A DNA stretch of 64,000 nucleotides, taken from assembly GCA_027919835.1 (NCBI GenBank), contig JANVFP010000034.1, positions 248,001 to 312,000 on the forward strand, in the 5' to 3' direction. The notes below the pieces were generated by a model. It ran no database searches. It worked only from the letters and a program-made list of their open reading frames with translations, and was not told where the DNA came from. Shown piece after piece: positions 30,324 to 54,128 of the stretch. The translations under genes and the position numbers were made by a program. Source of the DNA: Lentinula raphanica. Its lineage: Eukaryota; Basidiomycota; Agaricomycetes; Agaricales; Omphalotaceae. The number at the start of each line of letters is the position of its first letter. The first letter of the stretch is position 1.

Positions 30324-30344
30324 GGTCCGTATTGGACAAAAATA
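30324..30344 (+). repeat. Left terminal inverted repeat of giant element
   Basis: 21 bp, perfect match to the complement of 54108-54128. One to two further bases (G-rich, GG versus GA) may belong to it. Downstream the sequence is A-rich as at the other end. Confidence 0.9.
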
Positions 30345-30372
30345 CATGAAAAAAAAAGTAGCATAAAAACCA

Positions 30373-30720
30373 AAAAATATTGTCGTGATCACACCAAATC
30401 CCAAAAAATATTGTCGTGATCATTACAATGTCCGAAAAATATTGTCGTGATCACGATTGCCGCAAAAAAAATATGATGATCACGATGAAAAAATTTTTAA
30501 AAAATCGTGTGACGTAGATTTATTTTGTTTCCATCGTGATTGCGTTTTTTTTCTCCGATCAGCAAAATATTTATTGAAAACACGGTCACGATCCAAATCA
30601 CGATCACGGTTTTGGCCCAGAACATAATTTGTTTCTGCGATCATGATCTTCAATTTCAGTGTTTTACCTTTTGCCAATTCGATAGGGGAATCACGATCAC
30701 GATACACAAACGAAGGAGCA
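30373..30720 (+). repeat. Left subterminal repeats (AAAAAATATTGTCGTGATCA)
   Basis: At least three near-exact direct copies of this 20-mer lie within 90 bp, followed by shorter variants of the palindromic word CGTGATCACG and ATCACGATCACG up to about 30720. Subterminal repeats like these are commonly transposase-binding sites in DNA transposons. Confidence 0.75.
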
Positions 30721-30786
30721 AACATGTTTCGAAAATTTTCACCTTATCAATTTTCACCTTTGCCCTCCTCCCCATTTCTGGGAACA

Positions 30787-33700
30787 ATGGCTACCTGTAC
30801 TCAATGTCGCGACGAGAACGAAGAGTGGCCTTGTGCTGACTTTCTACAAGACCCTGGTGCCCCAGTAAGTCACTGTACTACTACACAGAGTTAGGTTTGA
30901 ATGCCAATGCCGTCCTAGACTGGGACGTGTGTCTGTGGGCACAGTGAAACTAAACACACACCGGCATTGCCTCCCAAGGGTGCTTGTCCGGCAAGAGCCT
31001 GCAAGGGCTTTGTAGCCCCAGTACGTGCATTTTTGGCATAACGTACCAGTGTTAATGTGCTTTCACAGGTCACTGAGCCTCTGACACCGCGGACACGTTG
31101 TGCGGCCTTCGTTGGCCAAGGGAGCGAGCATTGTGGTGCTCCCTATACTAGTCACCTTAATATGTTACAGTCAGTTTCTATTCTGTGTTCATGACTGGAT
31201 CCACTAAGCTATCCTCAGGCCTGTAACAACTACTAGGGGTCTTCCTGTACCTCCCAACGTCCCTGCACAGCGCGGTACAGGTGCCGTCACCCCTTGGCAT
31301 CCTCCAGCGCTATCAAACACTACACGGTCGGCATTGACGACTAATGAACGCCGAGTGGCGTCGTATCAGCAAGCTGGGCAGCCAGGGACTAGTAAACTCA
31401 GCACAATAGGGCGGCATAAGAGTCGGGGAGTTTCCCGCCACAACTTTACACCGTCTGCTCCTCCCTCTCTCCCTGGGTCCTCGTCCAAGGGCAAAGGAAA
31501 GGGAAAAGCTACAGTTGAACTCACTTTCCAAGTGGTTATCCTACCGGAGTGTTGTCATGTGAGTAGCTTCCGTCTTATATTGCAACTCGATTCTCATACC
31601 ATCATTGGAACAGGCTGACTCCAATGAGAACGCTGACCAAGATAGTGATGATGTGTACCCTTCAGCGGCGGCTATTGTGGTCAAGGAAAATGATGTCAAG
31701 GACCTGGTAGACCGCCTGGCCAGATACAAATTGGTCTTCGAAGTCACTGTGCCTCACGATCTAAACTTATCCGAGGAGATTTACTCCTTCCTCCGTGACG
31801 AGATCCGAAGTCACTTTACTTATCTTGACATTCGACTTACTTTCCCCAAGGGCAAAGTCGGTAGTGACGGCTGGTATGTTATCGATACCATCACCAAGAG
31901 TCGCACCACTGGCATCAGGAAACTCCCCATTCAGTTCAAGAGGCATATCCCTGCCCTCAACAGCAAATCCTTCTTCGAACGTGTGGAACTGACGAATTAT
32001 TTAAAGAAGACAACGGCTGTTCACTCCTACCTTGAAGGGAAGTTCCTCTTCATCTGTGCGTAACACGCTCTGTATTTTCTGGGAAGAAGTTGTGTTAATA
32101 CTTTGATTCCTGACAGCTCCTTCAGCGTCTCCTATGTACCTGGAGGACCACCCTTGCATTGGGTTCAAATTGCTCTACGAGTGGACCATTGAATACCGAC
32201 CTTGCGTTGATGACCCCGAAGAACTCCAGGCTCAGTGCTTGGCCCTGTGTCCATCTAAACGGACGCACATCCTTCATCATCCCTTTCCTAAACATCCTTC
32301 TCGTGATGTCAGTGCCCTTCCTGATCCTGATGCTCCATTGCTCCGAGGGCCCCTTGAAGAGCTAGGTGTTGACGACGACGACGACCGGGACATTCAGGCC
32401 GGCCCCTCAGGGTTAATCACTTTGCCCGAGTCTCTGAATGCTGATGATGATGAGGCTGCTGACATTGCACGAGCAATTGCTCTGTCCATGCAGGACCAGG
32501 TTAACCCTCTGCCTGTCTATCTATCGATAATCACTCACATTGTAACTATAGACTAGCCAAAGGTTGACTGCTCACGATCATTTCTCCAGTGCTGGCGCTG
32601 GTCCCTCAAGAGCTGTGGCATCAATTTCCGCTCCTGCATCGTTCCCCACTACTGGTCGTCGTACACGTCCTCTCAGCCCAGATGAGGTTGAAATTGTTTC
32701 CACCGACACGGTAGGTTTCTTCTGTTACTCGAGACCTGGGTTCATATATTCACCCACATCCTGAAGAATCATGCTCGTCGACGCCGCTTGAACGACGATG
32801 AGCCTGAGCATTCCGTCCCGTGGTTCATAACCCGGCTTCGAGAACATTCGGCACCACGGGGTGGGTCTATCATTGTAGTCACAGCTGACACTACTTTAGA
32901 AGCTGCTACTGCGCTCATCCATGCTTACCTGGCTACATATGCCCACAGCTCAACCACGGTACCTTCGAGTGTCAACCTACCAAGGGACAAGCGTACTGCC
33001 AAGCTTGGCATGCACGTGTACGTGGATGTCGCCATTCTCTTCTGACACTGTCAACCTCACCCTTGTAATGCAGGAACGTTGCTTTGGGGGATGGAGTTGT
33101 GAGATCCGTTCTCAATGAAGCTCTCAGCATTGTCATGGAAGAGCCGATCTGGATAGAAATCACTACAGGGTTGAAAAGTCTTGGGTTCGGTACACCAGTA
33201 GACCAAGATGGATTGGCTTGGATCAAAACATCTGGGACCATACTGGCACTTGGGCTCATTCATCTCGGAACGCTCCCATCGAACCTCAGCCCTGCCTTCC
33301 TGGAGGCTATCATCCATGGACCAGAGTCTGTGGAGGATGTTGCGTTCCTCACGCTCTTCAATCAGTCATGGGCTGCTCATATCCATGAGTGGCCGTTTGA
33401 CCCGAATCAGGAGCAGCCTCCAACGTATGTGGCGGAGCTGGTGAACTACTATACGAATTACAAGGTAAACACGGCTCCCTTGTTAGATCAATGTTCAGTG
33501 CTCACGGTTTTGCAGTTTGCTGAATTCAACGAGCGGTACAAGGCGTTGAAAGATGCTGGCCGGAGGGAGCTACGAGCCCAGGTGCTCTATAAAGCGATAC
33601 TGGACTTCCCACTAGGCTATCCATCAACCTTCGACGACCATCCATACGTCCAAGCCTTCAAAATGGGCTTCAACTTGATGTTCTCTGATGGTACCGACCT

Positions 33701-34356
33701 CATGAAGGCGTTTCCACGCGACACCAAAGTCTTTCTTCCCTATCTGATGCAATCTGTCCCTACTAGTGGTGATTGCATCGAAAAAGAAGGGTGCATCGAG
33801 TGGCAAGATTCCTTCCCTGATCCTGATCGACGACGCTACGCCTTAAAGTGGAAGAGCTGGTTCTACGAGTATCTTCGCGGCACCGGACATGTCTGGCACT
33901 CCGCGTATGCGGGTCTCATTAGTAAAGCCGACGTGGACAAGCATGCTAACGATGCTGGCCTACGTGCTCGTTCATTTTTACTTCATGCCACTGGCTCCAT
34001 GTCGATGCCCCGCAATAATCACAAAATCAAGGTACGAATGTTTGCATCCATGCCATACGGTACGGACCCTCATTGTTCATCCTCGAATCAGGTCAGCTTC
34101 TCCTTCAATGATACGGTTGATGGTGCGGTATGTGCTTCGTCATTGTCACATTTGAAGAATTGTTCTGAGATTCTCAATGAAGCCTCCTCGGGCGGCGTTT
34201 GAAGTGCACGCCTGTTTCTCGGATGTAACGGTGAACATTTGCCAGTATGTCAGAGGCCTTCTGGATGAGACGGTGAAAGATTCCCAGGTAATGTTCGACA
34301 TCTTCGTTCATGGGCCTTTGGCAACGGCAGGCCGCAATGACTTTTCAATGATGTAG
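30787..34356 (+). CDS. HECT-like E3 ubiquitin ligase with UIM, element-encoded
   Basis: Multi-exon gene. N-terminus MATCTQCRDENEEWPCADFL, then TGTCVCGHSETKH and GACPARACKGF, a Cys/His-rich region likely to bind zinc. Next a Pro/Ser linker with a GKGKGKGKA stretch and a globular part (VELTFQVVIL.., VKDLVDRLARYKLVFEVTV). At about 32440-32496 is DDEAADIARAIALSMQDQ, a textbook ubiquitin-interacting motif. The C-terminal ~350 residues match a HECT domain: SVLNEALSIVMEEPIW, ASGT/ILALGLIHLG-type N-lobe, FKMGFNLMFS, then LLHATGSMSMP (HECT TGS.xxP) and AAFEVHACFSDVTV, where Cys would be the catalytic thiol. Inferred activity: ubiquitin transfer. Similar HECT proteins accompany integrase-like genes in some animal transposons (from memory). 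The last exon end is uncertain. Confidence 0.6.
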
Positions 34357-34490
34357 TGTCTATAATGTTCTCGGTGTAGGATCATACCCACAGAACAATC
34401 AATTTCATTATTTATTTATTGAGTCTACATCATATTGTATGTCACCAGGCCTTGTCGCAAGGACAGATCACCTCCACAACCCCAGTATAC

Positions 34491-34526: not shown

Positions 34527-34579
34527 ATTGACCATATCGAGAAGATTTATGTAATCAGGACACAACCATGTGACATTCC

Positions 34580-34639: not shown

Positions 34640-35050
34640 CATGGGTGATTTGAACGCCTGTTGATCTTTTTCAGCAAGTTCAACCACAAACTCCAGCTCC
34701 AGGCTTAATTGAACCAGTCACGTTGTTTGGTTATCTGTTCCCGCAAAAGAATTGACAAATATAAAGGTTAGTTCGACCCTTTTTGTTTTTCCCCCGTCGT
34801 TTACAGTTAGAAGCTGGGCAGCCTCGGTTACTGCAAACCCTTCCACAGGTTACAGAACCTTTGAGAGCTGCCCTAGCGGTCTTGCTTCTTTCCCTCGACG
34901 ATCCTCTTCTCTTGCCAGTACAGCTACAGGACATCCTCTCAAAAGAAAAGGTGTCTCGGCTCAATGATGTTTCTCACAGCGACGTTTGGAACGATTCCAG
35001 GTTCAGGAAAGATGTTATGCGAGCTACAGGTGTAGGGGGATTGTTTGTAC
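34640..35050 (+). other. Leader-like segment shared with the TET gene 5' end
   Basis: The string CTGCAAACCCTTCCACAG (near 34830) followed by GTTACAG matches the first 3' splice site of the TET/JBP gene (near 44585) in 24 of 25 positions. An open frame follows (LEAGQPRLLQTLPQVTEPLRAALAV.. KEKVSRLNDVSHSDVW) that runs into the 3' end of the opposite-strand gene. It looks like a truncated gene start or a duplicated promoter/leader cassette, not a complete gene. Confidence 0.35.
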
Positions 35051-36342
35051 GGTATGAGTCAACCTCTCCGCTTCTACATAGAATTCTTGCAACTTCCAAT
35101 GTACTGACGGCTGCCGCTGGCCAGCGTCCGAGTCCAAGAGCTTGTCACAGGACAGTGTGTACGGGTACCAGGTCTGGCTCAAATCAACCAACTCATCATT
35201 GGCCACCTGGTTGGCGACGCAACGCCAAAGTCTGCCCAACGCAAGATGTACTTGTCCCAGCCTGTTTTTTTTGTTGGCAAATGTGTTCTCCCGAACACTG
35301 AGAAAATCGTACACGTCCGACAAAAGAATGTCGACTCCATCGACTCTATGGACGACGGTTTGCAGTCGCCGAGTGTCCAGAGAAAAACCATACAGGTTGC
35401 CGATGAAATGGAGCAAGCAATACTGTCGATAGGCTTTGTAAGCAGTGAAACCAGGTACCCGTAGCTGGCTGAAAGCCAACACTTCCTGGTAGATATCTGG
35501 AAACTGGCTTTGTAGAATTTCTACGGGACAAGATGCTGACTGTCGGACTTCAGAGATAACACGTGCGTTATGCATAAGATGGAGCGTCACCTGCATTTGA
35601 CCAACCCCCTCATCCTGCCAGGCTGGATTTTGTTCCTCAACTTCACAAGTCGTCAACCGTGCAACAAGGCTTTGCACACTGAGCTCTAGCCAGGGCGGCA
35701 GCTGAACCTCGGCTGTGTACAATGGTCAAAGTCGTTGTAAAGTGATTCTGGCCAATGCACTTACGAGTTCCGGACGTTGCGAGGGATGGCAAACTTGTAT
35801 CATCCGATGGTGATGCCGAGCTAACTTGAACTGAAAGAGGGCAAAGACTGTTAATGACAAGAAGGATGGAACATCGGTGAGTCATACGCAAGGCTGAGGA
35901 CATTTCGCCATTTTGATTCTCCACCTGCTCCTCACGACATTGCCCATGACTTGGAGGGTCCGCCGTTGGTCCCGCCAGAAGTATTTCAGGTTCTGGAAAA
36001 GGCGCTGGGTGGGGAGGGCCTATGAGAGGATTACAAAGATCAGTGATCGGCAACCCTGGACCAGTGCCATCTTCGTGCTCTGGCTGCTCCTCCTGGACAA
36101 ATTGAACTTGGCCCTGCATTTCATTGGAGAGCAACTGGTCCAACCGAGAGCCTAAAAAGCAATGAGAACTTCCTATGAAAACATTGTTGGAGGTAGTAAA
36201 TCAAAGAACCTGCGGCGTCGTTCGTCCCATAATAGCTTGTCAAAGCTTGGTCTGGCGTGCTGTGAGGCAATTCAGGTGATTCAGATGTGGGGAGCATAAT
36301 ATATTGCTCCATGAGTTCTGGAACAGCAGGTGAGAAGAACAC
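35024..36342 (-). CDS. Element-encoded protein of unknown function
   Basis: Probable multi-exon gene. The main C-terminal exon (35720-35024) reads AEVQLPPWLELSVQSLVARL, HLMHNARVISEVRQSASCPVEILQSQ, LPGFTAYKAYRQYCLLHF-like helices and LLSDVYDFLSVRENTFANKKNRLGQVHLALGRLWRCVANQV, ending TIPLHL. Upstream exons give an acidic/Pro-rich part (QFVQEEQPEHEDGTGPGLPITDL.., PFPEPEILLAGPTADPPSHG). The start near MFFSPAVPELMEQYIML is tentative. It lies directly downstream of the transposase gene on the same strand with about 300 bp between, so a role in transposition is possible. I do not recognise the family. Confidence 0.4.
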
Positions 36343-36653
36343 ATAAAGTAAATAAAAAGAACCATACCTTCACCCGTTGCCTCAGCAGGAACATTAGATC
36401 GCTCACCCTCCAACAGCTGGGGATGTGTTACACCCTGACTTCAGCTCCTTCTGGATCTCGGCACAGTAGGGACTGCTGAGAGCTGACGGTGGGAGCGCAG
36501 ATTCATCGTTGTTATAGAATAAAAAATCAGCAATCAGGGGGCATTTCTTTCAAAAAGCTGATGTAATCGTCTGCGCTAAGTCCGATCAAGTTCGGGCCGA
36601 ACGGCATCAGGCACGGGCACAGCTCTAACATTAGGTGGAATGACTATTTGTAC

Positions 36654-38618
36654 TCAGTTCGATACTGAAATAATACTATGTAGCAATTCAAGTGCCCTGG
36701 CCCACAGCCCTTTGTAACTCTGAACGTCTCTGCAACCATATTCTGGAGCAGCCATCAAACTTTCAACGAATGAATCGAGGTCTTCCTGGTTCTCAAAGGG
36801 ACACGCAAAATCTGGGACCTCTACCAGGGATAGCTGCGGAGGTTGGCGTGTGTTTACAGGGCCCAGCGGTTCCCCATCTTCTCCGTTTGCAGGTCCAAGA
36901 AATTCAGCATCATCTTCGTTGTTTTGCTGGTGGTGGCCAAGGATTTCAGGATTACTGAGATCTTCCCAGTCAACCCCATAGGCATCGATGTTTTCGACCT
37001 CCTCCTCATCGGGTGGTGGGCCTGATTGCCAGACTGGTGCTGACATCCCTGGGGGCCCTCGGAGACCATGCTCCAGTACACCAAAGAAGAACATATCCTG
37101 AGGTGACCTGTCCCTCCCCGCCCCGTGCAATTGCATGGTATGACTGTTCCAGCTCTTGGCCCAAATCAGAGCATCATCATTGATATGCTGAAGGAACAGA
37201 TGATGAAGGAGCCAGATGTGGCAGTCGTCGTCAGGACACAATCCCCCATTCAACTCGAGGTCATGGAACAAATTATACCACTTGATACCAAAAGCTTGAG
37301 TAACATCGCGCCACAGCCGCTCAATGCGAACGTTGTGAACGCTCCTGTTTATCACAAGTTTGAATTGTTGATATTTTTTCATTCAAGCCATCAAATGAAG
37401 GAACTTGCCTGCCCCAGATGTATGAACCACGCTCAGCACCAAAGTTTTCTTCCATATAGCGGGCCACCCCAAGGTTTTCAACCCCATGGTCACCCCGGAC
37501 TCGACTCGGAGTGTTATGCGTTGCTATAGCTTGCAAGAACAGAGAAAGCACTGTATCAGCCCGGTTGTTCCCATTGGCCTGTATGGCAGTGACCATACGA
37601 GAAAAACCATCAACGAAGGCATGAATCACCACTCGCCAGCGTATGAGTGCTAGTAATTGTCGGTCACCGGTGAGCAACGGTAACCATTGGCGAGCAGGGC
37701 GATGGGGATGAACTTACTGTGTTGACCATCATGATGCCACAAAGAATTCGGGCCGCCGACTTGATACCTCCTTCTCTCGATCTGGCGTGACGTGAGGTGG
37801 GCTGGTGCTCCTGTAACTCGCTCATATGAATGCCGAACCCTTTCTCGCGGCACCTGATGCCCCAGACATCTGAGATGGCCTGTGATCATTCGACGACCAA
37901 AGGCAGGAAAGACTTCCAGAATGCCTCCGATAACAGCATCCAGTTCCTCATCGGACAAGGTCGACACCGGTGCCGTGGATGACGATTGATACAAACGCAG
38001 GGTTTCGTGTGTCTCGGGGTGTTCAATAGTCACATACACCGGAGGGCAGCTTTCAACCATCCCGTGTTCCAGGGCTCGACGGCGGACAGTACGAGGAGAG
38101 CAATCAAAGATGGGTGCCAGATGGGTAGGGCCACGCAGCTGAAGGCTTGCTTCCAAAATCACTGGGTTGAGTTCTTTTCTAGGACGCCCGCGCCCCCCTG
38201 TCCTCTGGATCTGGGTAAGTTCGACGGGTGTATGGTCCGTTGTATCTTCAGATCGGTGGGCTGTTTCTTCCAAGGCTGATAGCATAGATTGGACACTGGT
38301 CACCATTGTGTCGTAGTCGTCGGGGTCAAATAAATGCTGATGCTGTATGGCAAAAATTCGTTAAACTTGGTTCCTGATCCAATGAACAATGTTTCAATTC
38401 ACCTGCATTATTGAATCAAGGAACTCTCGTGTAGATGCCTCCTGACGTTGTAATTGGGACACATCGCCGAGTTGAAGGCGAAGTACTTGGGTGACACGAT
38501 GGCCAAGTTCTGTGTATGCAGCGAGTATAGTCCGGACTTGCAGTTCTTCATCAGGCCCCGGTTGAGCGGATATCAATACACCCAGCAGTGCCAGGATCAC
38601 AGGAGAAAAAAGCAACAT
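36654..38618 (-). CDS. DDE integrase-core transposase candidate
   Basis: Exon 1 (38618-38404) reads MLLFSPVILALLGVLISAQPGP.., then REFLDSIMQ. Exon 2 has GRGRPRKELNP (basic, AT-hook-like) and LAPIFDCSPRTVRRRALEHG (helix-turn-helix), ending GGPNSLWHHDGQH. A short intron leads to LIRWRVVIHAFVDGFSRMV, TPSRVRGDHGVENLGVARYM and, across a GC-AG intron (CAG|GCAAGT), SVHNVRIERLWRDV. The catalytic triad is D in WHHDG (about residue 277), D in RGDHG and E in RIERLW, with 34 residues between the last two, the retroviral-integrase/IS3-like spacing. YNLFHDLELNGGLCPDD.. and an acidic tail end at 36654. About 600 residues. The family resembles eukaryotic integrase-core proteins of fungi and fish (remembered as Pfam rva_4). 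The hydrophobic N-terminus looks odd for a nuclear protein, so another start may exist. Confidence 0.75.
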
Positions 38619-38640
38619 TGTGCTTGGCGGGCGCTAATGT

Positions 38641-38840
38641 TGGGCGTTAAACTACTGGGCTCAGCGGATTACAAAGCAAATTACGTGATTTGGGCGTTAA
38701 ACTACTGACCTCAGCGGATTACAAAGCAATCCATGTGATTTGGGCATTAAACTGCTGGCCTCAACGGATTTATAAGCAGAATGTGTCATTTGGGCGTTAA
38801 ACTGCGAGGTTCAGGGGATTGCTAAGCAGAATCTGTCAAC
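38641..38840. repeat. Four tandem 50-bp repeats upstream of the transposase gene
   Basis: TGGGCGTTAAAC or a one-base variant begins at 38641, 38691, 38741 and 38791, exactly 50 bp apart. Each copy continues CTACTGRCCTCAGCGGATTA.. with increasing divergence to the right. The array ends about 20 bp upstream of the transposase start codon (38618, minus strand), so it probably contains its promoter or autoregulatory sites. Confidence 0.88.
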
Positions 38841-38976
38841 TTGACTTCAAACCCACTCAGGAGAATTGCAGTAAATGGTTCAGAAACTGGAACTGGAAAA
38901 TTATATACTAGAATATGAATAAAATACAGATACACAAGCTACCAAACATATCATTGGCTCCGAGATGTCCTTAGCG

Positions 38977-41900
38977 CTACGTACTCGATCGTTCGATCCT
39001 CGACACCACATACTTCCTCCCCTGCACCACTGTTTCCCAATCGTACGACTGAGGTTCGTCGTTACTCCATCGCGTGACCCATTCCTCCACTGTTTCGCCA
39101 TCTTCATCCCACGGCCATCTCCTTTGTAGTCCCTGGCTGTACTGGAGCACTTCTTCTTGTATGGCCTGCTTGACTGCCTCCGGGGTTATTGCCCTGTCCT
39201 CGGGATGCATCCCCGTCTTCGCCCCCTTGACCATTTCGTACACGAGAGTTAGAGCCTGGTGGCAAAGATACATCCGACTGAGATTCTTCAACCGACCATG
39301 CGTTGCAAATGAGTCTGGAGGCCCGGAATATTGAACGATTTGGAAATTGTCTGCTACCCAAGATAGCAGCTCGTTTGCCTGGAGACAGGCATTTTGTGAG
39401 CGAACCGCGAAATCAGGTGGCACCACGAAGTTGGCGGATGCAGTGTAGTCCCCACTTTTCTCTCTGTACCGCCGGACATCCAGGACAGGGATCATCTTCA
39501 CCAAATTTACTAAGGTGAGGAACTGTATGATGTCTTCGAAAGCATAGAAATTTGGGAGATGGACTATGAGGTCACGGCCTGATAGATAATTAGTTGAATG
39601 TCTATGGAGAGGAGGAATAGGTTTACCGTCCTCGCTCTTCGTCCCCGGTGGATCGATGTTCCGTTTGTGGAGGCTTTTGAAATATGTCACGCTGTTGTCG
39701 ATGATAGAATGATGATAGAAGGACATGATGCTTATGAGCCCATCAAATGCGTTGTAATCGGCTGTGTTGGTGATGACGCGTGCGGCAACGAAGTTGTGGT
39801 ACCAGCTATATGCTGTTCTGGTCATTGTTAAGTAGCTATAATAATGGCCACCGTGGCATATAGCTGGCGACGGGGTGAGGACGAAATGAGGCGTGCACGG
39901 TGGCATGACTCTGCACAATTTGTTGAGTTGTTTTGGCAAGCATTGGAACGGGTGTTGAGTACTCACAGCATATCTCCAGGTTCCAAGATGAATCCATACA
40001 AGCCCCACCGCTGGCTGTTATGGCCATCTACCCCAAACCGCGAACCAAACATCTCGGTGCTGGCAAAGTCGGACTCGTGTCTAGGTATCGCCGTTATCCA
40101 ATATTTTGAGCCTGTGTGAGGCATTACCCAGGTCCCGTAGCCTTCACAGTCGACATGGAATTGGTGGAGAGCGTGCGACGTGGCAAAAAGCCCCCAAGAC
40201 AGGCCCTTCTTGTAGACTCGCTCTAACCCAGCCGCGTCGGCATGTTCCTTGGTGCAAATGCCTTCGGGGGGACGCACACACGAAGCTGGAAGGGGAATTT
40301 CGAGGCAATTGACCACCTTGTTGCCCGTAAGCGCGGCTTCTTGAACGTCCCTCAGCGTGCCAAGCGTGTGACAATCGGAAGCCTTCTCACATGTACGAGA
40401 GCCATCTATCAAGCCAGGACGACAATCAAGGATAAACCTGATGAAATTGACTTGCAGGCACTTACCATGCAATGTACGTGACTTCTCCAAGTCACCCAAC
40501 AGTCGTTCGATGTGGTCGTCTTCGTTCACACTGTATCGCTCACGGTCTGCCGCCCTGCCACGTATAAGGAAACCCCCGCGCGCCTGCCGGTATAGTGCAA
40601 GGCGTCGACGGGTGGGCATCACCTCCCAATCATCGACAGAGACTTCCCGAATGGGATAGTCCCCTGGCCGCACCCATTGTGGATTTGGCTCGCCGTTGTT
40701 GAGTATCCGGCCATCTGATTTAGCCTGCGAGTGAATCACACTCATGACATACCGCAATTGGGCAGCGGGAAGTAAAAGCTGAAAGGGATTTCAATGCATC
40801 AATATCGAGAACACAGAGTGAAGGGAAAGACATACATGCGAGAAATAATCATACTCCATTGATCGGGTACCATCATGATGGAGTAGCTGATAGGTCTCCC
40901 GGGACTGCAACTGCAGTAACATGTGAATCAATATCAAGCCAACCCGAGAAGTCAGGACGACTTACTGGATTGTGAGGAATGGATTCATATAAGGGGATCA
41001 CAACCTGAATACGATCAGGTTCAGTCAAACCTTTATTGGTACAGTTGACAGTTGCAGTGCTTACATCGTCCTCCATGTCTTCTTCCTCCTCCTCACTCCC
41101 TTTGTCCTCTGGAGACAACGAACGTCCAGGTTTCGGTGCTACGCGTGCTAGAGCGGCTGCTGTGGCAGCTGCGCCAAGTGCTATTATACGGCCGGAACGG
41201 CGCAGACCAGTTTCCGTGACCTCACTATTGCTTGGTTGGGGTTTCCCGGAATATTCTGTATGGGAAAGAGAGACGGTGAGGACATAGAATCAAGGTAGAA
41301 TGCTTGTGTAAATAGTGAAAGGACTCACCCTCTTCCTCGCTCTCGACCTCGTCCTTGTCCTTCTTTGACTTTTTACGTGGCCTGGGCTTTTTCGGTTTTG
41401 GATCAGGCTCTGGGGCTGGGTCGGGCTTCCCCTTCCCCTTCCCCTTTCCCTTTCCCTTTCCCTTCGGCTTCGGGGTTGGATCGGGCGCCGGCTCATCATC
41501 TTTATCCCCATCATTTCCCGGAGGATCGTCGTCGTCTGAGGGAGGAGGTGAGCTAAGGTCAGACGAAGGGGAAGGGGATCTGCTCGGCTTGCGCTTGGTA
41601 CCGGCTAGAGGCTGAGGATCGCCTCCATTACCCCCCAAGGGTTCTTCATCATTCCCCGGAGGAGAGTCGTCGTCTGAGGGAGGAGGTGGGTGAAGGTCGG
41701 ATGAAGGCGAAGGGGATCTGCTCGGCTTGTCAGCCTCTGGATCCACGTTCATCTCTTCCTCTTCCTCAACATCCTTTGGCCTAGGGTCGGACGAAGGCGA
41801 AGGGGATCTGCTCGGCTTGTCAGCCTCTGGATCCACGTTCATCTCTTCCTCTTCCTCAATATCCTTCATCTCTTCCTCAATATCCTTCATCTCGTTCATC

Positions 41901-44285: not shown

Positions 44286-44433
44286 TTCTTATGGATTGAG
44301 TTGGAATTGTGAGTTGAACGGTGGTGGGGGTTGAAAACGAACTTGAAATTTTCTGAGTCTTAAAAAGAAGCTGACAAAGCAGCCACGAGGCCATGGCATC
44401 TCATGCCGCTTACATCATTATGACTCGTGCATT

Positions 44434-44469
44434 GGGCGCTAAACTACTGAGACCAGCAGTTTAACGCCC
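44434..44469. promoter_or_regulatory. Palindrome in the divergent JmjC/TET promoter
   Basis: GGGCGCTAAACT..AGTTTAACGCCC, arms of 12 bp with one mismatch and a spacer ACTGAGACCAGC. It lies between the start codons of the JmjC gene (44285, -) and the TET gene (44510, +), about 41 bp before the latter. Same motif family as at 34491, 34580, 38641-38840 and 53497, so a shared binding site for an element-encoded or host regulator is a fair inference. Confidence 0.6.
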
Positions 44470-44509
44470 ACCACCCTGTCATTTTTCATCACTACCAATA
44501 CGTCACAGC

Positions 44510-46846
44510 ATGGGGCCTGAATCCCAAGGTGAGTGTGTATGGCTATATGCATGCTATAGTTGTGACTGTGTACATCGCTGCAAACCCCTCCACAGGTTAC
44601 AGCTTTGCCTCGCAGCCGCACTGGTTTCCTACCACTGACCCTCTTTCCTTCAACAGGCAATTATCCTAAGGGTCAATTGCGATCGGGAACTCTACGTCAG
44701 TTTCTGCCCCTTCCTTACCGTTGCCGCAGATTCAGCCTGCGCCAAACTCTCCAGGCCGAGAACCGTGCACGGATGAAAAGAGAGGAGTCGGGAGATTTTT
44801 TGGATGAAGAGGTCGAACTCGAAGAAGAGGTGGAGGTCGTGGCACAGGAGAAAGAGTTGAGCACGGAGGCCTCGGGGATTCCCACCTCCCTTGGAAAGCC
44901 CGCCCCTGTTGGAACTTCCTTCGGCCACAACAAAACCTCCAATCCACGCGTAAAAAACGCACACCAAAAAGCCAGACGCCGTGCAGAAGCTCAAGCCCGC
45001 GAGGCTCAGGGGGGGATCAAACCGGTAGGGGTTCTACGTGCACAGGAAGCTGCTGTGCTTCCAGTCACGGATTTCCAGATGGCATCGCTCCCTGTCTCTA
45101 CCACTGCAGCTGAGGCTGTAACTTTTATGCATAACAAGTGGGCAACTGCCTGAGGCCTGTTTTGCATTACCAAGGGGCAGTTGCCTACCACTCAATAAGC
45201 CTCACTATATCTCACTATAGCAGTGGATGTAATGCATAACAACTTGGGCAACATGTTATGCATAACATATAGGCAAAAACATTTTTCAATATTTTTGAAA
45301 AAAACAATTAATTGTATCTTTTGAAATATCCATTTTTGGAAAAAACTGACACCCCCTATAAGGGGTCTTTTTTTTAAGGTCTATCAATATATCCTCAACC
45401 CCTAACCCCTAACCCAACCCCTAACCACCCTAACCCCTAACCAAACCCCTAACCCTAACCTAACCCAACCCCTAACCCCCTAACCCTTTTTGGCCTATGT
45501 TTGGCACTGAATCAGACCCCTCCCTAATGTTGGGGTTAGCATAGCTAACCCCAACGGGAGGGGCCTGATTCAGTGCTTAATCCCAGTTTAAATATTCATT
45601 TATTGGCTGAGTGGGCAACTGCCCCTTAGTAATGCAAAACAGGGCTCAGGCAGTTGCCCACTCATTATGCATAAAACCTACAGCTACAGGTGACCACTGC
45701 TTGGACAGGCAAGAGGGCTTCCCCTAGTCTCGGTTCAGCCTGGCAGAGCCTAGAAACGCTTCGTGACAAGGAGGGGTTTGAAGTGTTTGACTGGGATGGG
45801 AGGTAAGCCGCGGTTTTGCAACATTGTAATCACAGTTGATACATCCCCTCGCTAGGGCCTGTCATACTCTTGTGGACAACGAGGACATTGTTTGTGGAGT
45901 GCTTGCCGGAGGCCCGAGGGGGTGCGAGTGGGATGAGGTAGCAGAGGATGCAGCCGCCGCTGTGGGAAGTGCATATGATAGCATGACCTTTACCAAGAAA
46001 CAGCTGGAGTCGCGGCGGGGCAAGTTCGCCTCTTGTACCGCTGGTTATTCATACGGGGGCGGCAGGGAAATCGTCGGAAATGTCCGAATCAATGGGAAGA
46101 AAAACAAGGGGGCTATTGAGACCCTCTTGAGTCAGAAGAGCATTCAACGGATTGTTGGCTTTACTCATGGTTCGTGACGTCAGGTATAATTGACCAACCA
46201 AGAAAATGCTTACCTCTCTGCAGATATGTTCAAGACGTTTGCCCATAAACCTTACATGCAATACAAGGAAACAGCTGAGGCGCTCCAAGCTCGCCATCCG
46301 TACCTCCGTCCGACCTCGCACAAGACTCCTTTTGCCGCTACCACTTTCAACATGGGACCCCATTCATTCTCCCCTCCTCACGTCGATGAGGGCAATAACG
46401 CTTGTGGGTGGTGCGTGGTCACTGCCCTAGGACCGTTCGACCCAGACAAAGGTGGACATCTTGTGCTCTGGAACATGAAGTTGATCATTCGATTCCCCCC
46501 TGGTGCTTCCATTCTCTTTCCTTCTGCGCTTGTTACACATTCAAACATCCCCATCTTGCCACATGAAAAGAGGTACTCGATGGTTCAGTACTCCGCTGGA
46601 GGTTTATTTCGTTGGCGATACAACGGTTTTCAATCCGACAAAGCTTTTTTGGCTTCAGCTACCTCTTCTCAGTTGAAAAAGCGCGAGCGGGATCGTCAGC
46701 TGCGCTGGAAGTCCGGCCTTGATAATTTTTCCCGCTGGGAGGATATTCAGAATGGAAATTGGAAGGGTGACCAGGAAGATGGAGGGCCTTCTAATGCTGA
46801 TGTTGATGCTCGCCCCACCAAACGGTTTAAATATCTTTCTCAGTAG
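44510..46846 (+). CDS. TET/JBP-family 2-oxoglutarate dioxygenase, element-encoded
   Basis: A first short exon (MGPESQ, 44510) appears spliced to a long exon with KNAHQKARRRAEAQAREAQG (basic), closed by a GT donor at 45118. A ~570-bp intron containing a small transposon ends at 45689. Then VTTAWTGKRASPSLGSAWQSLETLRDK, GCEWDEVAEDAAAAVG, CTAGYSYGGGREIVGNVR and IQRIVGFTH. The final exon holds AATTFNMGPHSFSPPHVDEGNNACGWCVVTALG with the HxD iron ligands, GGHLVLWNMKLIIRFPPGASILFPSALVTHSN with the distal His, and RYSMVQYSAGGLFRW with the 2OG-binding Arg region. This order matches the basidiomycete TET/JBP family, which oxidises 5-methylcytosine and is known to be spread with KDZ-type transposons. Key residues are intact. 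The N-terminal exon structure is tentative. Confidence 0.8.
45395..45487 (+). repeat. Telomere-like CCCTAA-type repeats, interstitial
   Basis: About 90 bp of CCCCTAA/CCCTAA/CCTAACC variants in irregular order. Their position in the middle of a small TIR element within a gene excludes a chromosome end. Confidence 0.85.
45504..45576. repeat. Long hairpin inside the intronic element
   Basis: GCACTGAATCAG..CCCCTCCC..TTGGGGTTAGC on the left pairs with GCTAACCCCAA..GGGAGGGG..CTGATTCAGTGC on the right, with only ATA as loop and a few mismatches or bulges. It may be a remnant of a smaller nested palindromic element. Confidence 0.75.
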
Positions 46847-47187
46847 CATGACAACCGTCGAAATACACCGAATACTTGAGTTCGAGCTGACAGTGACTGG
46901 ATTACTTGCTTTATTGCAAGGACATTACTGAAAGCCAGGCAAAAAGGGAACAAGAAAATATATATCCAACGGATGAACTACAACTTGGAACAAATATCAA
47001 GAGTATGCAACCATGATAATGTCGGTCCCTTTGACGGTGGACAGCCAATCAATGACATGAAGGCCTCCTGCACCACGTTCAACCAAAATAGACCACCTCT
47101 ATGCATCATCAATAAACGTCCACAGTGCATCTTGCTTCTTGAAATTGTGATGTATAATATCCAACGTCGACGGTACCTGCTACAGCA
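46847..47187. other. Spacer, no gene seen
   Basis: About 340 bp after the TET stop codon. AT-rich, no motif. Its right end (CTGCTACAGCAG before TGACAGCACC) could be a splice acceptor of a lost upstream exon. Confidence 0.35.
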
Positions 47188-47747
47188 GTGACAGCACCAG
47201 GGCGCTCGCGTCCTACTCCTAATGCTTCTGCACCTTTACCTGGTGACTCCGCCTCCGCTTCAGCGTCGACATCCAAGCCACGGAAGAAGCGTGCAAAGAC
47301 GAAACACGACGACAAGTCTTTCAAGCCCGATCCTTCACCTTTTCATTCCGACGATAACGATATGGATGTGGACGATTCGGCGTCTGCATCTGCTGGTCCT
47401 TGGAAGGCAAAGCGAGCGACCAAGAACATCAAAACGGCGATGAAGCAGAAAGGAAAGGCGAAAGACAACCGTGGGGATACCCCATCGTCGAAAAACAACG
47501 TTGATTTCCCAAGTGGATCTGATAATAGATCCAGTCCTTCGCCCCAGAATCAGCCCGAGTCTGCATCAGGCGATGAAGGTCGGCAGCGTAGAAACAGTCA
47601 TCGGCATAATGTGTCGTTTGCACTTGATTCTAATGCTGGCTCATCGTCCTCTCCGAATCCGAAGAGCACGACTGGGGTTTCTGGAAAACCACGCTCTTCA
47701 GCTGCCCGTTCACGCACGCAAAAGCGTCGGGTTCGAACGCCTCATCT
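47188..47747 (+). pseudogene. Basic Ser-rich open fragment, probably captured exon
   Basis: An open stretch of about 180 codons: TAPGRSRPTPNASAPLPGD, SKPRKKRAKTKHDDKSFK, MDVDDSASASAGPWKAKRATKNI, SGDEGRQRRNSHRHNVSFAL, ending RSRTQKRRVRTPHLF. It is disordered and nuclear-like, without a domain. Homology-like content stops exactly where GH20 sequence begins (about 47748), which suggests a fragment joined to the next one and not a complete gene. Origin unknown. Confidence 0.45.
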
Positions 47748-48460
47748 TTTTTCGTTGATCCCACTATCGAGATCATCGTCGATTCTGCTTTCGCAGAGGT
47801 TTCTGATGGACCCGGTCAACCGAGTCTGTTTGGCTTTGCGCAGACGTTTCGAGAAGATCTCATGTCTGTCACCGGGTTCACTGACCTCCCTCAGGTCCAG
47901 AACGCCAGTGTATCCTCGGTCACTTCGTCAACAGTGTTCTTGCCGTTGGGTGTATCCAACTCTTTCAACCTGATGTTCAATGGGGAAATCTCAGGCGAGG
48001 GTTACGAGTTTGAAATTACGGAGAGCGTATATACGATCAGAGGTGTAGAGGTACTTGGTGCTTGGTGGGGTAGGTTTTTCGTGATATCCCTTCCGAACTC
48101 TTGTATCAAACTAACGACGTTTATAGGAACAAGAACACTTCTACAACAAGTGATCCTTTCCATCGCCAGTGGTTCTAATCCTGCTCAAATACCTACCGGC
48201 GTAGGCGAGGATAATCCTGGCTGGGAAGTCAGAGGGTTCATGCTCGATGCTGGGCGTCATTGGTTCGAGATACCATTCTTAGGTCTGTTATGTTTACTTG
48301 ATCAACCACGTAACGCCATGTTGACTGTTCATTCCATTCAGCTGACCTCTGCACTTACGCCTCCTTCTTCAAGCTCAACGAATTCCACCTTCACGCTTCG
48401 GATTTCATCTGGAATCCCTGCTTCTTGTACAACTCTGATAACACATCATGGCGTTTGTTG

Positions 48461-49228
48461 TAGAGATGCTCACGAGTGGCAAGTGTTGACAAGTACTCGT
48501 GAGTTTATTCGTACTCGTGACTCACGAGTCAAGTGTTTTATTTATACGAGTGTACTCGTGGCACGAGTGTATACTCGAGTCATGATCATCAAATTGTATT
48601 GACAAGTACTCGTGCAATTTATTCGCGAGTATTCTCCTGTACTCGTGAGTATTTCTACTATTAACCCTGCACATGACTTTTCTCAGTGGCTATGTGGCTA
48701 TTATAAATTTTTGTGTTAGAGTCACAGCCACTGCCTATTATAATTAATAGGAGAAAAGGAGTAATATAGTCTAACATATGTCATATGTAAGAAAATGTGA
48801 ATGGTGAAGTGGTTAAAGGCGCCGACTCTGGAGTAAGGTCAAGGCCTTCCTTTAACTTCCTTCAGAGTTCAAATCCCCCTCATGGCAACTTTACCTAGCA
48901 GTAAATCTGAATATTGTTCTTGCTTCAAAGCATAATAATACATGTTTCGGTACTGTATATTTATTAAAAGCTATAAAAATTAAGGTAACAAGTATTAAAA
49001 CACTCGAGTGTATTTTTCAATACTCGAGTCTTTCCTCTATATACTCGAGTAGATACTCGAGTCACGATTTGGATAAATTACCTTGAATATTCGTGGCACT
49101 CGCACTCGAGTGTCTGTTACTTAGAAACACTCGAGTATAGACTCGAGTCACAGTTGCTGATTTTGAGTGACGAATATTCGTGTCACGAGTGGCAAGTACA
49201 CTCGAGTGTGCACTCGTGAGCACCTCTA
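48461..49228. mobile_element. hAT-like non-autonomous element, 768 bp, 8-bp TSD
   Basis: TAGAGATGCTCACGAGTG at the left and the complement of TAGAGGTGCTCACGAGTG at the right; flanked by the exact 8-bp duplication GTTTGTTG (48453-48460 and 49229-49236). TAGAG-type TIR plus 8-bp duplication is the hAT signature. The interior has many copies of ACTCGAGTG/CACGAGT words and a tRNA-like segment; no transposase. Its removal restores the GH20 reading through YNSDN..LYTGFRF. Confidence 0.88.
48797..48890 (+). repeat. tRNA-like (SINE-type) segment with A and B boxes
   Basis: TGGTGAAGTGG (48802-48812) fits the Pol III A box and GAGTTCAAATCC (48865-48876) fits the B box, 52 bp apart as in a tRNA with a long variable arm. 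The arms do not fold into an obvious acceptor stem, so it is a tRNA-derived relic and not a working tRNA gene. Confidence 0.45.
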
Positions 49229-49912
49229 GTTTGTTGTACACCGGATTCCGTTTCCAACCTCCCGCTTCCTCGCCGATCTTTGGTCTTGTTCCAGAGCTCA
49301 ATGAGAGCTGGACCAAAGATCAGTTCACCTCTCTTCAAACAACTTGTGCGAACCACGGAGTGAAGATCATCCCAGAGATCGATACTCCTGCGCATTCGCT
49401 GGTGATCCTTCTGGCACCCTGGACCTTCTGAACCTCACATACCCAGAGACTATACCTACTCTCAAAGAAATCTGGAATGCAATCCTTCCATGGTTCACAT
49501 CGGATGAAGTCTCAATCGGCGCAGATGAATACGATGCATCATTAGCGAGCGACTACATCTCATTCGTCAATGAATAGCACGACTACATCGCCAGCACCAG
49601 CGGAAAGTCGATTAGAATCTGGGGAACGAACGAGCCTAGCTCGACCGAATCCATCAACACGAACGTGACTATCCAGCACTGGTGGTTTCCCGGCGGCTCG
49701 ATCCCTGTCCAGCTCATGGACCAAGGCTATAGTATCATCAACTCCGACCAAGTCTTCCTCTACCTCGACGGTAAATTCGCTGACGGCGGTCAGTTCCCTT
49801 GATCACTCAACACTACCCTGCTCTGGTCCGAGTTTTCTACTCCGGATGGATCGACACAAGGCGGCAGGGCACCGAATATCTTCTCATCCACTGATGCCTC
49901 CGTCAACTACCC

Positions 49913-51255
49913 TCTTCAACACAGCAGCACAAACACTGGGGGGCTCTGTGACGTTTGCCCCTGCCCCTCCCGTCTTCTTCTCTCATTCACAGTCCAGCTC
50001 TGTCCAGAACACTCCCTCCGCTCCTTTTGCGGCCCCGAACGCAAATCCTGATGCCCTAGTCGAGCGTGTGATCAATGTTCAAACTTGTCCTCTTTGTCAT
50101 CGGCCGCGATTGAACGCGAAAGCTGAGGTGGACATTGTCACCCACCTTGCTATTTGCGCATCGCAGGATTGGAACAAGGTTGATCGTATCATGGTTGGCA
50201 ACTTTGTCACTGCCAGTCAAGCACAGAGAAAATGGTACACGAGGATCATCGGAAAGATGAGTAGCGGCAACTACAAACTAGGCGCAGTAAGTGTTTTAGT
50301 TTGTTTTCTTATCGTCTTCTATCAACTCACCACGTGTAGAATTCGGCCAACATCATCGTGCAAAACCGCTTGACAGGCCAACTAGAAGAAGAGAAGATGC
50401 AAGTGTACGTGAGACTCGGTATCCGTCTACTCTACAAGGTACTTTCTGTCGAGTGTCTAGCTCGATCAGTCGCTGATGTTTTCGCGTATTCTAAAGGGAA
50501 TGAAGTCTCGTATGGAAGGCTCCCGTGCCCGGAGTCTCCTCAAATCACTGTCGATCAAACAGGGCATCAAGTACGATTCTCCAGACAGTGTTCGGGACAT
50601 CTTGCCCTTCATCGAGTTCCACAAACTCGATATGCGCGAAGTCAGAGATCCAGTTCAAAGTTTCAAAACATTCATTCAATTTTTTTATCGGTAAGCTTTG
50701 ATTCATCTCGCAACTTACTTTGTGATCTAATCTTCCCGCTTTCAGCAAACTCAAACCAGACGCACGCCCTGTTGATTCTCCCTCTGACCCTTATCGTCTC
50801 GTCTCTGCCGCAGACTGTCGATTCATGGCGTTTGAATCCGTGAGCGAGGCAACCAGGCTCTGGATCAAAGGAAGGGAGTTCAGTGTTGGAAGGTTATTAG
50901 GGAATGCATACAAGGTAAGTTTTCAAAAGTATCTCTCTCCCTGTGGTCTAATCATAATTTCGATTCAGGCTGAAGCACAACGATATAACGGCGGTGCATT
51001 GGCAATCTTTAGGCTCGCGCCAGAAGACTACCATCGGTTCCTTTCGCCTGTGGATGGGAAGATAGGGAAAATGACTTACATTTCTGGAGAGTATTATACC
51101 GTCAACGTATGGAAGTTTCGTGACTATCCAAAAAAAATTGCGCTGAACAGTAAATTTTCTCTAGCCACAAGCTATTCGCACTGCTCTCGATGTATACGGA
51201 GAGAACGCTAGGAACATCGTGCCCATTGACTCGCCGCAATTTGGGCATGTTATGG
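49913..51255 (+). pseudogene. Phosphatidylserine decarboxylase 2 (PSD2) fragment
   Basis: Starts abruptly with LFNTAAQTLGGSVTFAP, then VINVQTCPLCHRPRL (zinc-like linker), [53 protein letters not shown] and [17 protein letters not shown]. It goes on with [46 protein letters not shown] and ALAIFRLAPEDYHRF. After GEYYTVN it passes through a disturbed joint to AIRTALDVYGENAR and IVPIDSPQFGHV, then stops. Introns are kept. The N-terminal C2 domains and the C-terminal LGST/GGST autoprocessing motif that makes the pyruvoyl cofactor are missing, so it cannot be an active decarboxylase. Confidence 0.82.
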
Positions 51256-51912
51256 CTGATATCCGACAAACCTTCGTTGATACCTTTGGCAGCAGCGATG
51301 CTCCCCCCAGCAGATATCGTACAAACTCCCATGCGCCATCGAACGCGGGGTTGTCGTCTCCGACTAGGAACTGGCGTCCCTCGTCCAGGAGATGGGGAGG
51401 GTGGGAGTTGAGTTCGTGGGCCATGAGGATACGGTGGGGTTTCATACGGTGGGGTTTCATTGGGCACTGGAAGGCGGAGAGGTGATGCATGAAGGACGGT
51501 TGCTAGGATACGTAGAAGGTGCGTAATTGGAAGTCGTATATGTGTGATCACTCCCTTGTGTTTGGGGGTGTGGTTGGGGAGGGTAGGTGTTAGGTGTAGA
51601 AAGCAGCAGCATAGTTGTCTTGAGTCGGATGGTAGTATTCGTCCCACGTCCAGAGTGCCACCGCAGTGAAACATGTTGATGAGGCTGGGAGAAATAAAGC
51701 TCAGTAGAGCATCGTACTAGCAAGTTGAGAACACGTAGCTTATTGAAATTGATATGTATGTATATTTGATGAGGTTGAACGGCCTGTGTGGCAGTGTAGG
51801 CCTGAATTCTTCAAATATTGACTTCAATATACAAAGCAAGCAAGTCATATAGCAATCATCCTGGCTGAAGTTTGAGTACCAGGATATTTCAGTGGAAAAA
51901 AAAAATCTTACC
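51256..51912. other. No supported gene
   Basis: About 650 bp after the PSD2 fragment. The plus-frame continuation (DIRQTFVDTFGSSDAPPSRY..) is not PSD-like, and a minus-strand frame of 190 codons at 51102-51674 overlaps the PSD fragment and has no motif. A 16-bp direct duplication ATACGGTGGGGTTTCAT occurs at about 51428 and 51445. Confidence 0.35.
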
Positions 51913-52526
51913 TCACTCATTCGCCGCCCTTACAAGCAGGGGGTGTATAAATTCTTCCCAAACCGCAAATATGTCTACCGACGTCTCTGCGACGCGGAAA
52001 CTAAAGATCTCTTGATGGTGTCGTTCGCCTTGTAAGATCGCTTGACTTGAGTGGACAAGTCCGATGAGATAATTTGATATGTACATTTCGGGCAATGCTT
52101 TCGTGGTCTGTCTGTGCAGATCCCTTCGATCAAGAGGTGGGCGAGAGATTCTAACACACAATGAGTTTGGTTTTGGTCGGAACAGAACAAACGTATACCA
52201 GCTCGTCGCCGGTGGGCAACGGGAAGGGTATCCATCCAGATTCGGGTAGGACAAGGACATTGATGGTCCCATTCCCTCCTCCGACGCGCGAAATTACTGG
52301 TCATTCCGACCTTGAAATCAACCCCGTTATCGAGATAGGCGTATAACACGCCGCAGCCATCGGCGGGGGATATTGGCTGCGATTTCCGCTTTTTGTATAG
52401 CGCGGCCAATCGAGTAGGAGACCGTTTGTGCACGAGAGCAGCGTCCTCATTCAATCTGTGATTATATGCGGGCGCCTCCTGCATAAAATGACAAGGGGAG
52501 GAGGATCCTAGCAGATTTTGAGCCAT
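51913..52526 (-). CDS. GIY-YIG/T5orf172-like domain protein
   Basis: Three exons: start MAQNLLGSSSPCHFMQEAPAYNHRL (52526), a basic stretch RLAALYKKRKSQ, then GVLYAYLDNGVDFKVGMTSNFARRRREWDHQCPCPTRIWMDTLPVAHRRRA. An intron follows, then ESLAHLLIEGICTDRPRKHCPKC, an intron, ERHHQEIFSFRV and ..WEEFIHPLLVRAANE. The YxYxxxxxxFKVGMTxxxxRRxxEW core and the following ..AESLAHLLLE.. match T5orf172/MUG113 proteins of the GIY-YIG nuclease superfamily that are frequent in mushrooms. About 150 residues. A nuclease role is inferred from the fold only. It is the last gene before the right end of the element. Confidence 0.7.
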
Positions 52527-53496
52527 ATATGCCTATTTAGACAGGTGGGAGTAAAAGGGGTGTGGCAAGGGAAGGGGGGACCTAGTATTAGAGGTTGATG
52601 AGGGAGGGGAAGGGGGGGAAAGGGAGGAAAGAATGAGAAGTTATCAGAATCAATGCTGTTATATAGAAGAATTCACAGAGCTTATCTGGATAGATGGGAT
52701 CGACTAGATAGATGGGATCGATTGGAAGCTTGCTGAGTCTGAAGTAGACATGCATGCTAGCATATATCGTACATAATGCCTACAGGTACTCTACCCCCCT
52801 CATACAGGTATATAAAGTAACCGTGGCACACGGTTTGTGCTCGCGAAGGAAGCATGAAATCCAGTCTATTGCACGTAGTTACTTTATGTACATACATTAG
52901 AGATACAGTCTTCAACCAAGAGAAACTGATTGACCAGAGTTTTGAACGGGACGTATAGTCAGTCGGCTTTGAGAGTCACCAATGTCCTACTGGCAATGGG
53001 CAGGAATTGTGGCCAGTGGCCGTTCATGTAATGGTGTCCTATGGTGTCGCATTTAGTTCAACATCGCGCTGTTTAACTTGATAATTCTGAAAATAGACAG
53101 CATTGAAGATGACAGGCATATAAGCAGAGAGAATGAACAGGATATAGCACAAAAACTCACGAGGCTAACTTGAGGCGGCATATTGCATTCTACTGAACGA
53201 GTCCTGAATCCTTTCTCCTTCAAAGCCTCAAAGCTCAAATTTCTGCCTCATCAACCCATTCAGCAGCATGAAGAACCCATTCACCATTCAGCTAGAACAT
53301 ATCCTGAGAGTGTCAAAGAGAAAGGGCCAGATTTGAGCGGGAAATCATGCATATATGTTAGGACGAGCTCGAGCATAAAAATTCTATCGGGATTCGACTT
53401 TTACAAACAAGTACAAACTCGGACATCACTCTCTGTCCTCACACGAACCCACTTGCTTCGCTTCGCTCGCAATCACGTGACCCTGGTGGTTATGTA
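52527..53496. other. No gene seen near the right end of the element
   Basis: Nearly 1 kb, A/G-rich near 52560-52640 (GGGAGGGGAAGGGGGGAAAG), later AT-rich. Open frames lack motifs. It may hold the promoter of the GIY-YIG-like gene. Confidence 0.4.
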
Positions 53497-53525
53497 AACT
53501 CACTGAGCTATGTACTTTAACGCCC
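53497..53525. repeat. Element palindrome, degenerate copy near right end
   Basis: TAAACTCACTGAGCTATGTACTTTAACGCCC keeps the right arm and spacer (ACTGAG) of the family; the left arm is shortened. Confidence 0.5.
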
Positions 53526-53642
53526 AGTCACGATTGCCGGCCGGCCGATGTTTTTTTGTGCCGGGAAATCTTTTTTTTTTTTTGGGGGACAAAAATTTTT
53601 TCTCAGTCACGCCGCTAATCACGATCACGATCGTGATCGTTA

Positions 53643-53945
53643 GAGCCCGTTCGGATCGTTCGACATCCCGCTGTGGGATGCCAAGACGGTGGGATGGATG
53701 GCCGGCCCCCTTCCCGTGTCGCTTTGATTTCCGGCGCTAATTGACGATATCACTTATCTGCTATGATAAGACAAGCGCCTACAAGCAGATTTACCTGTTT
53801 TGGTCTGATAAAGGCATTAGATTATTACAAATGCAAGATATGATTAGATATAGCTACTTCAACGTGACACGGCTTGGGTTGCCGGAAGGTCCATCCCACC
53901 GTCTTGGCGTCCCACAGCGGGATGTGGGACAATCCGAACGGGCTC
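53643..53945. mobile_element. Harbinger-like MITE, 303 bp, TTA target duplication
   Basis: Left end GAGCCCGTTCGGATCGTTCG and the complement of the right end GAGCCCGTTCGGATTGTCCC continue as matched repeats (CATCCCGCTGTGGGA, GCCAAGACGGTGGGATGGA) for about 55 bp. TTA stands on both sides (53640-53642, 53946-53948). No coding capacity. PIF/Harbinger assignment rests on the TTA duplication and GC-rich TIR. Confidence 0.82.
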
Positions 53946-53989
53946 TTAATTCCCAAAAATTCTCAGTACACGTTTAACGTTGAAAAACT

Positions 53990-54107
53990 TTCGGCCGGTC
54001 ATCGTGACCGGCGTTTTTTTTTCCGCCGAACGTCGTGATCACGACGATATTTTTCGGTTAAGCAGTGATCACGGCGTTTTTTTTAATTCCACGAAATATT
54101 TTTTATT
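53990..54107 (-). repeat. Right subterminal repeats of giant element
   Basis: In the complement, AAAAATATCGTCGTGATCAC and CGCCGTGATCACTG mirror the left subterminal words, preceded by A-rich DNA next to the TIR. Confidence 0.7.
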
Positions 54108-54128
54108 TATTTTTGTCCAATACGGACC
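54108..54128 (-). repeat. Right terminal inverted repeat of giant element
   Basis: Exact complement of 30324-30344. Host array sequence (GGTGCTGGGCAAGGGTTGCT) begins seven bases further on. Confidence 0.9.

Follow-up and report, generated by a model that had tools for sequence, protein, structure and literature searches.

TET-family genes have been described as cargo of fungal DNA transposons, in KDZ elements (Kyakuja and others) of Agaricomycetes and in IS3EU elements of Pucciniales (rusts) and of the truffle Tuber indicum (Kojima, 2025; PMC12730594). IS3EU elements are recognised by TA..TA termini, 6-bp target-site duplications and an IS3-like integrase-core transposase (PMC10045372; PMC12730594), whereas KDZ elements use another transposase and leave duplications of 7-8 bp (PMC12730594). 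The TET-bearing IS3EU elements have TAYGG..CCRTA ends within inverted repeats longer than 30 bp, and those with an alpha-kinase gene place TET between it and the transposase, a trait of a subset and not of IS3EU as a whole (PMC12730594). CcTet of Coprinopsis cinerea oxidises 5-methylcytosine (5mC), and two TET types have been distinguished, a PE type with HxE and an AG type with Asp at the position of CcTet residue 337 (PMC12730594). Here, a 23,817-bp element of Lentinula raphanica (Agaricales, Omphalotaceae) is compared with these systems; it lies in a 64-kb stretch of contig C34 (C34:248001-312000, hereafter the window, whose positions serve as coordinates), and the 49-Mb genome was the search space. 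This large DNA transposon fits the IS3EU superfamily, and its cargo includes a TET-family gene head to head with a JmjC-like gene.

Like the elements of Kojima (2025), it has 6-bp duplications, ends resembling the TAYGG type and TET beside an integrase-type transposase (PMC12730594), but it adds JmjC-like, GIY-YIG and ubiquitin-interacting motif (UIM) genes, and a scan of six element proteins with an E limit of 1 found no alpha-kinase. An earlier note on this DNA had proposed an integrase-type giant transposon; the class is not new, TET-bearing IS3EU elements having been published already (PMC12730594), and what is new is the JmjC-like gene beside TET, the GIY-YIG gene and the Agaricomycete host. 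The available part of that text makes no mention of JmjC, HECT or GIY-YIG and does not report TET-bearing IS3EU elements from Agaricomycotina (PMC12730594), and none of the titles or abstracts listed in searches of the open-licence PMC literature describes a JmjC gene in a transposon that carries TET. With the KDZ elements of Agaricomycetes it shares the host class, and the same TET sequence family adjoins KDZ in this genome.

Ends, copies and transposase of the element

The ends and genes of the element are as follows.

30312..30317, no strand: left target-site duplication GGTGCT, 6 bp, perfect
30318..30353, + strand: terminal inverted repeat of the left end, 36 nt long and 89% identical to the right repeat (32/36)
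30365..30484, + strand: left subterminal repeats, 31-bp units with CGTGATCA motifs
30787..34356, + strand: UIM gene with a Cys-rich N-terminus (gene model; public protein P0001; weak UIM), the HECT-like gene of the earlier note
34873..38618, - strand: DDE integrase-core transposase (PF24764, E 7e-61)
38640..38838, + strand: four tandem 50-bp repeats with the motif TTGGGCGTTAAACT, between the transposase 5' end and the JmjC 3' end
38977..44285, - strand: JmjC-like gene, KDM2A-like HxD...H, long disordered region (KDM2A E 0.068; JmjC_2 E 0.005, under cut-off)
44217..46842, + strand: gene for a TET-family dioxygenase, placed head to head with the JmjC-like gene and interrupted at 45108-45692 (gene models, fold of a relative)
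45108..45692, no strand: nested 585-bp miniature inverted-repeat transposable element (MITE) in the TET gene, with telomere-like repeats inside, absent from the second copy
51912..52526, - strand: GIY-YIG (T5orf172) gene, ends approximate and introns placed by eye, kept in the second copy
53516..53525, - strand: GGGCGTTAAA motif, one copy within the right subterminal stretch, upstream of GIY-YIG
54030..54075, - strand: right subterminal motifs
54099..54134, - strand: right terminal inverted repeat
54135..54140, no strand: right target-site duplication GGTGCT, 6 bp

The transposon itself is real, with mobile ends. The earlier note had called for other full-length copies and named the lack of any second copy as evidence against its proposal; this is not the situation, because the two ends and all five genes (transposase, JmjC, TET, GIY-YIG and the UIM gene) recur in a second large copy (C2:1130336-1151240, 20,905 bp). 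Seven short copies of 1.0-2.2 kb share these ends; three places with one recognised end (C20, C17:408063 and C9) were excluded from the count. Perfect 6-bp target-site duplications flank all nine two-ended copies, two large and seven short, and a 6/6 match of the same flanks at other offsets occurred 4 times in 29,241. The same nine copies have TA..TA termini, their ends reading TAT...ATA; TATGG stands at both ends of the second copy and of the copy on C27, and the window element has TATGG on the left and TATTG on the right. Across copies, left and right ends agree at 30-34 of 36 nt.

The perfect 21-bp inverted repeat that had been reported was recovered, with only two matches in the window (0.00 expected), as were the mirrored subterminal repeats, which comprise the 31-bp units at 30365-30457 and an inverted pair at 30432-30456 and 54033-54057 with 96% identity. 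Eight of the window's nine CGTGATCA/TGATCACG sites fall in the two subterminal stretches. The ends given at 30324 and 54128 mark a real repeat, but the true ends are placed at 30318 and 54134, six bases outward on each side, because the other copies show them there. In these ends, in its 6-bp duplications and in having an integrase core, the element matches the published description and so fits the IS3EU superfamily. The integrase core was identified correctly from the outset, with D277, D334 and E369 of the gene model as its DDE residues; gene models came from a simple splice finder. With a ratio of nonsynonymous to synonymous substitution rates (dN/dS) of 0.16 between the two large copies, and of 0.21 in its C-terminal part, the transposase is by this measure under constraint.

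It is very improbable that the element is really moved by a KDZ or Plavaka transposase, with an integrase gene that is merely incidental, although KDZ is the commoner TET neighbour in this genome. For the counting of loci, matches less than 2.5 kb apart (less than 4.5 kb in the case of KDZ and Plavaka) were merged, and both large copies were included. The totals are minimum values, with 92 of the 113 transposase candidates of a first look and 129 of the 154 TET candidates scored; merged loci number at least 49 for the transposase, 93 for TET, 14 for JmjC, 92 for GIY-YIG, 108 for KDZ and 78 for Plavaka. The random expectations given below assume an even spread, whereas transposons cluster; the KDZ and Plavaka loci provide a second control. 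Among the loci listed, 21 of 93 TET loci have KDZ within 6 kb (2.4 expected) and 23 within 8 kb, and an IS3EU-type transposase lies within 6 kb of none (1.1 expected) and within 10 kb of six (1.8 expected). Against a KDZ mobiliser, no KDZ domain appears in the six element proteins under the same E limit of 1, none of the matches listed among the 158 genome matches of the KDZ domain PF18758 falls in the window, and the nearest one listed on the contig, C34:128410, is about 119 kb left of the window; the nine copies have 6-bp duplications, unlike the 7-8 bp of KDZ. Plavaka is likewise missing from the window among the matches listed and from the six proteins. On these listed matches, scanned proteins and duplications, KDZ was rejected as the mobiliser, and the element is, as the earlier note proposed, an integrase-type, non-KDZ transposon carrying a TET-family gene and a JmjC-like gene.

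The C3 locus was considered as a third copy and rejected, its transposase and distant JmjC being tail to tail, with no matching ends in the 19 kb examined. Alike predicted secreted-protein-like genes flank the second large copy on both sides (C2:1129402-1130368 and C2:1152551-1153327), and two similar short secreted-protein-like frames, fused in the gene model, stand in tandem at 27727-29866, directly left of the window element.

The TET-family and JmjC-like genes

Assignment of the TET gene to the TET/JBP family is supported by the predicted fold of a relative, P0005, which is 54% identical to the second copy's protein and whose closest solved fold is CcTet; identity to CcTet is about 12%. 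Neither a profile search of the PDB with the TET alignment nor a single-sequence search found a related chain. The Fe(II) triad HxD...H and the Arg that binds 2-oxoglutarate are present in the TET models of both copies, and these residues recur in 44-46 of 47 relatives. Both copies read HVD, with Asp in 44 of the 47 relatives, and not the HxE of the PE type; the position of CcTet Asp337, located by plain residue offset from the His without structural alignment, is Cys in 46 of 47. The MITE, which has 82-nt inverted arms and internal telomere-like CCCTAA repeats and is flanked by an 8-bp duplication, ACCACTGC (read by eye), sits at what is codon 224 of the second copy's TET model, in the 5' coding part and upstream of the catalytic part. 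The second copy's TET model is uninterrupted, and the window copy retains the catalytic parts; as its TET gene is interrupted, "self-contained", the earlier note's word for the cassette, is too strong for this copy.

The JmjC gene proposed earlier stands in part: weak sequence matches to KDM2A and JmjC_2 speak for it, but a profile of four relatives found no match in the PDB. Its HxD, Lys and distal His align with KDM2A (JHDM1A), although only at E 0.068, and the element protein differs in its very long disordered region and in that the other domains of KDM2A differ or are absent.

When the two large copies are compared in 500-bp bins, identity is 64-92% in the part to the left of the middle and, in the alignable stretches of the right end, 75-90%, whereas from about 38600 to 46853, nearly exactly JmjC plus TET, the bins are 95-100% identical. 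Because of this difference, the JmjC-TET block is, judging from sequence identity, a recent exchange, through conversion or recombination, between two lineages that are otherwise older. For TET, dN/dS inside the block is 0.075.

The motif TTGGGCGTTAAACT has six matches in the window at up to 3 mismatches (0.01 expected), and the second copy retains its core, GGGCGTTAAA, as do five of seven short copies and the stretch between the JmjC and transposase of a locus on C39; the motif is a candidate binding site. The motif also occurs at 44432-44471, beside JmjC and TET.

What the pair may do, and what the element has captured

The account that we consider moderately probable is that, in this IS3EU-fitting transposon, the TET-JmjC pair lifts silencing based on DNA methylation and on histones, so that the transposase is expressed. 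The DDE transposase would recognise the TATGG-type inverted repeats and subterminal motifs and insert the element with a 6-bp duplication, and would probably also mobilise the short internally deleted copies in trans. TET would oxidise 5mC, as CcTet does (PMC12730594), the JmjC protein would remove or bind histone methylation, and together they would keep the element expressed. A more tentative extension, which we hold to be rather unlikely, takes TET-JmjC as an exchangeable 8-kb block that moves between IS3EU elements, with the TTGGGCGTTAAACT sites as element-specific control or targeting, which would amount to a two-layer, self-addressed anti-silencing system.

Several observations weigh against the anti-silencing account. 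The window TET is interrupted by the MITE, the JmjC_2 score is 16.8 bits for a Pfam cut-off of 22, and no PDB chain matched the JmjC profile with the E limit set at 10. Two of the four JmjC relatives, the public proteins P0003 and P0004, have no distal-His stretch, perhaps through a gene-model error, and the C39 JmjC paralogue has no HxD. JmjC dN/dS between the large copies is 0.86, at a dS of 0.0075 and with few changes. The IS3EU assignment was made from termini, duplications and integrase core. Finally, two of the four JmjC-transposase pairs and two of the five JmjC-TET pairs described next are the large copies, which share a block.

JmjC lies within 6 kb of an IS3EU-type transposase at 4 of 14 loci (0.17 expected), namely the two large copies, C3 and C39, the last two differing from the window in that JmjC and transposase stand tail to tail. 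Among the loci listed, none of the 14 has KDZ or Plavaka within 10 kb, which is weak evidence because only 0.6 and 0.4 were expected. TET is found within 10 kb of JmjC at 5 of 14 loci (0.52 expected), head to head in the two large copies and on one strand at C4, C44 and C51. Those three pairs, at C4:12-19 kb, C44:329-336 kb and C51:176-188 kb (C4 and C51 near contig ends), have none of the listed transposase loci, whether KDZ, Plavaka or IS3EU type, within 30 kb.

Pairs without any of the three transposase kinds nearby, and a C39 JmjC that has lost HxD, favour the reading that TET and JmjC are passengers captured by chance, without a role in transposition. Capture of host DNA does occur in this element; the captured fragments and the nested inserts are as follows.

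47211..49900, + strand: captured host fragments, 89-94% identical to C41:275311-278057 (GH20 gene; Pfam GH20), MITE-split
48461..49231, no strand: nested repeat within the captured fragment, with 39 of the 44 genome matches of the region, some being pieces of one copy
49897..51256, + strand: captured host fragment, 98% identical to C1:1282181-1283541 (phosphatidylserine decarboxylase gene; PS_Dcarbxylase E 5e-34)
53642..53946, no strand: nested insert bounded by inverted arms of 57 nt (93%), not present in the second copy

The GH20 and decarboxylase pieces overlap by four bases between TET and GIY-YIG, and in the second copy this slot is filled by different pieces, from C19:547688 (94%) and C19:1013732 (97%), with two small C8 matches. 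The passenger account is nevertheless rather unlikely in our view: what was captured is fragmentary, differs from one copy to the other and has 89-98% identity to host loci, whereas TET and JmjC are full-length in both; JmjC is constrained relative to the C39 paralogue (dN/dS 0.34); and 11 of the 49 IS3EU-type transposase loci listed have TET within 16 kb (2.9 expected). It is quite improbable that the pair acts instead on host chromatin, through a domesticated or dosage-altering effect, with the transposon as its carrier; TET and JmjC are multi-copy and many copies have none of the transposases sought nearby, but in both large copies the pair lies inside precise transposon ends.

As functional cargo, the GH20 and phosphatidylserine decarboxylase sequences were rejected, both being partial copies of host loci. 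Pack-type transposons are gene-capturing elements, and as in these, fragments of unlinked host genes are joined within the element, but the captor here is large, carries genes and belongs to another superfamily. The C19:1013732 piece probably comes from the front of a host HECT gene, because its source sits about 0.6 kb before the HECT match at C19:1016063. The repeat at 48461-49231 is about 770 bp long and has many genome copies of about 86-99% identity. The 585-bp MITE in TET, the captured fragments and the further nested inserts had been missed in the earlier reading.

Accompanying genes and meaning of the finding

GIY-YIG lies within 10 kb of an IS3EU-type transposase at 13 of 92 loci (1.8 expected) vs 2 of 92 near KDZ (4.0 expected), among the loci listed, and because of this it looks like an IS3EU gene in this genome. 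Its identity was confirmed by T5orf172 (PF10544) at 20.1 bits for a cut-off of 20; MUG113 scored 21.0 bits, under its cut-off of 22.3, both with a hand-spliced query. NCBIfam gave no match.

The UIM gene matches the L. raphanica public protein C8R42DRAFT_647302, and the second copy's UIM protein is 98% identical to a public protein of another genome record of the species (EV361DRAFT). The genome holds four merged matches to it, one each in the window and on C2 and a pair at C6, of which one stands beside a transposase match, and a dN/dS of 0.31 relative to the second copy indicates that it is under constraint. A fold model built from two sequences had a mean pLDDT (predicted local distance difference test) of 29 and was not used. 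HECT identity, suggested by a resemblance of motifs that is no test of it, was not confirmed and was dropped as a finding: a genome search with PF00632 to E 10 gave 16 matches on six contigs, none in either large copy, and neither hmmscan nor a PDB search of the UIM protein found HECT. For the ubiquitin transfer once proposed, nothing was found beyond weak UIM matches (E 0.004 and 0.011), both under the cut-off.

TET-bearing IS3EU-type elements are thereby extended to Agaricomycetes, and within a single genome TET genes of one sequence family adjoin KDZ as well as IS3EU-type transposases. The exchanged block, the uninterrupted TET model of the second copy and the short non-autonomous copies make this a testable system in a relative of the cultivated shiitake. 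Transposons with a DNA-methylation eraser were already known in fungi, and the novelty is the added histone-demethylase-like gene; if the anti-silencing account is true, it would suggest that mobile DNA is under selection to defeat two silencing layers at once.

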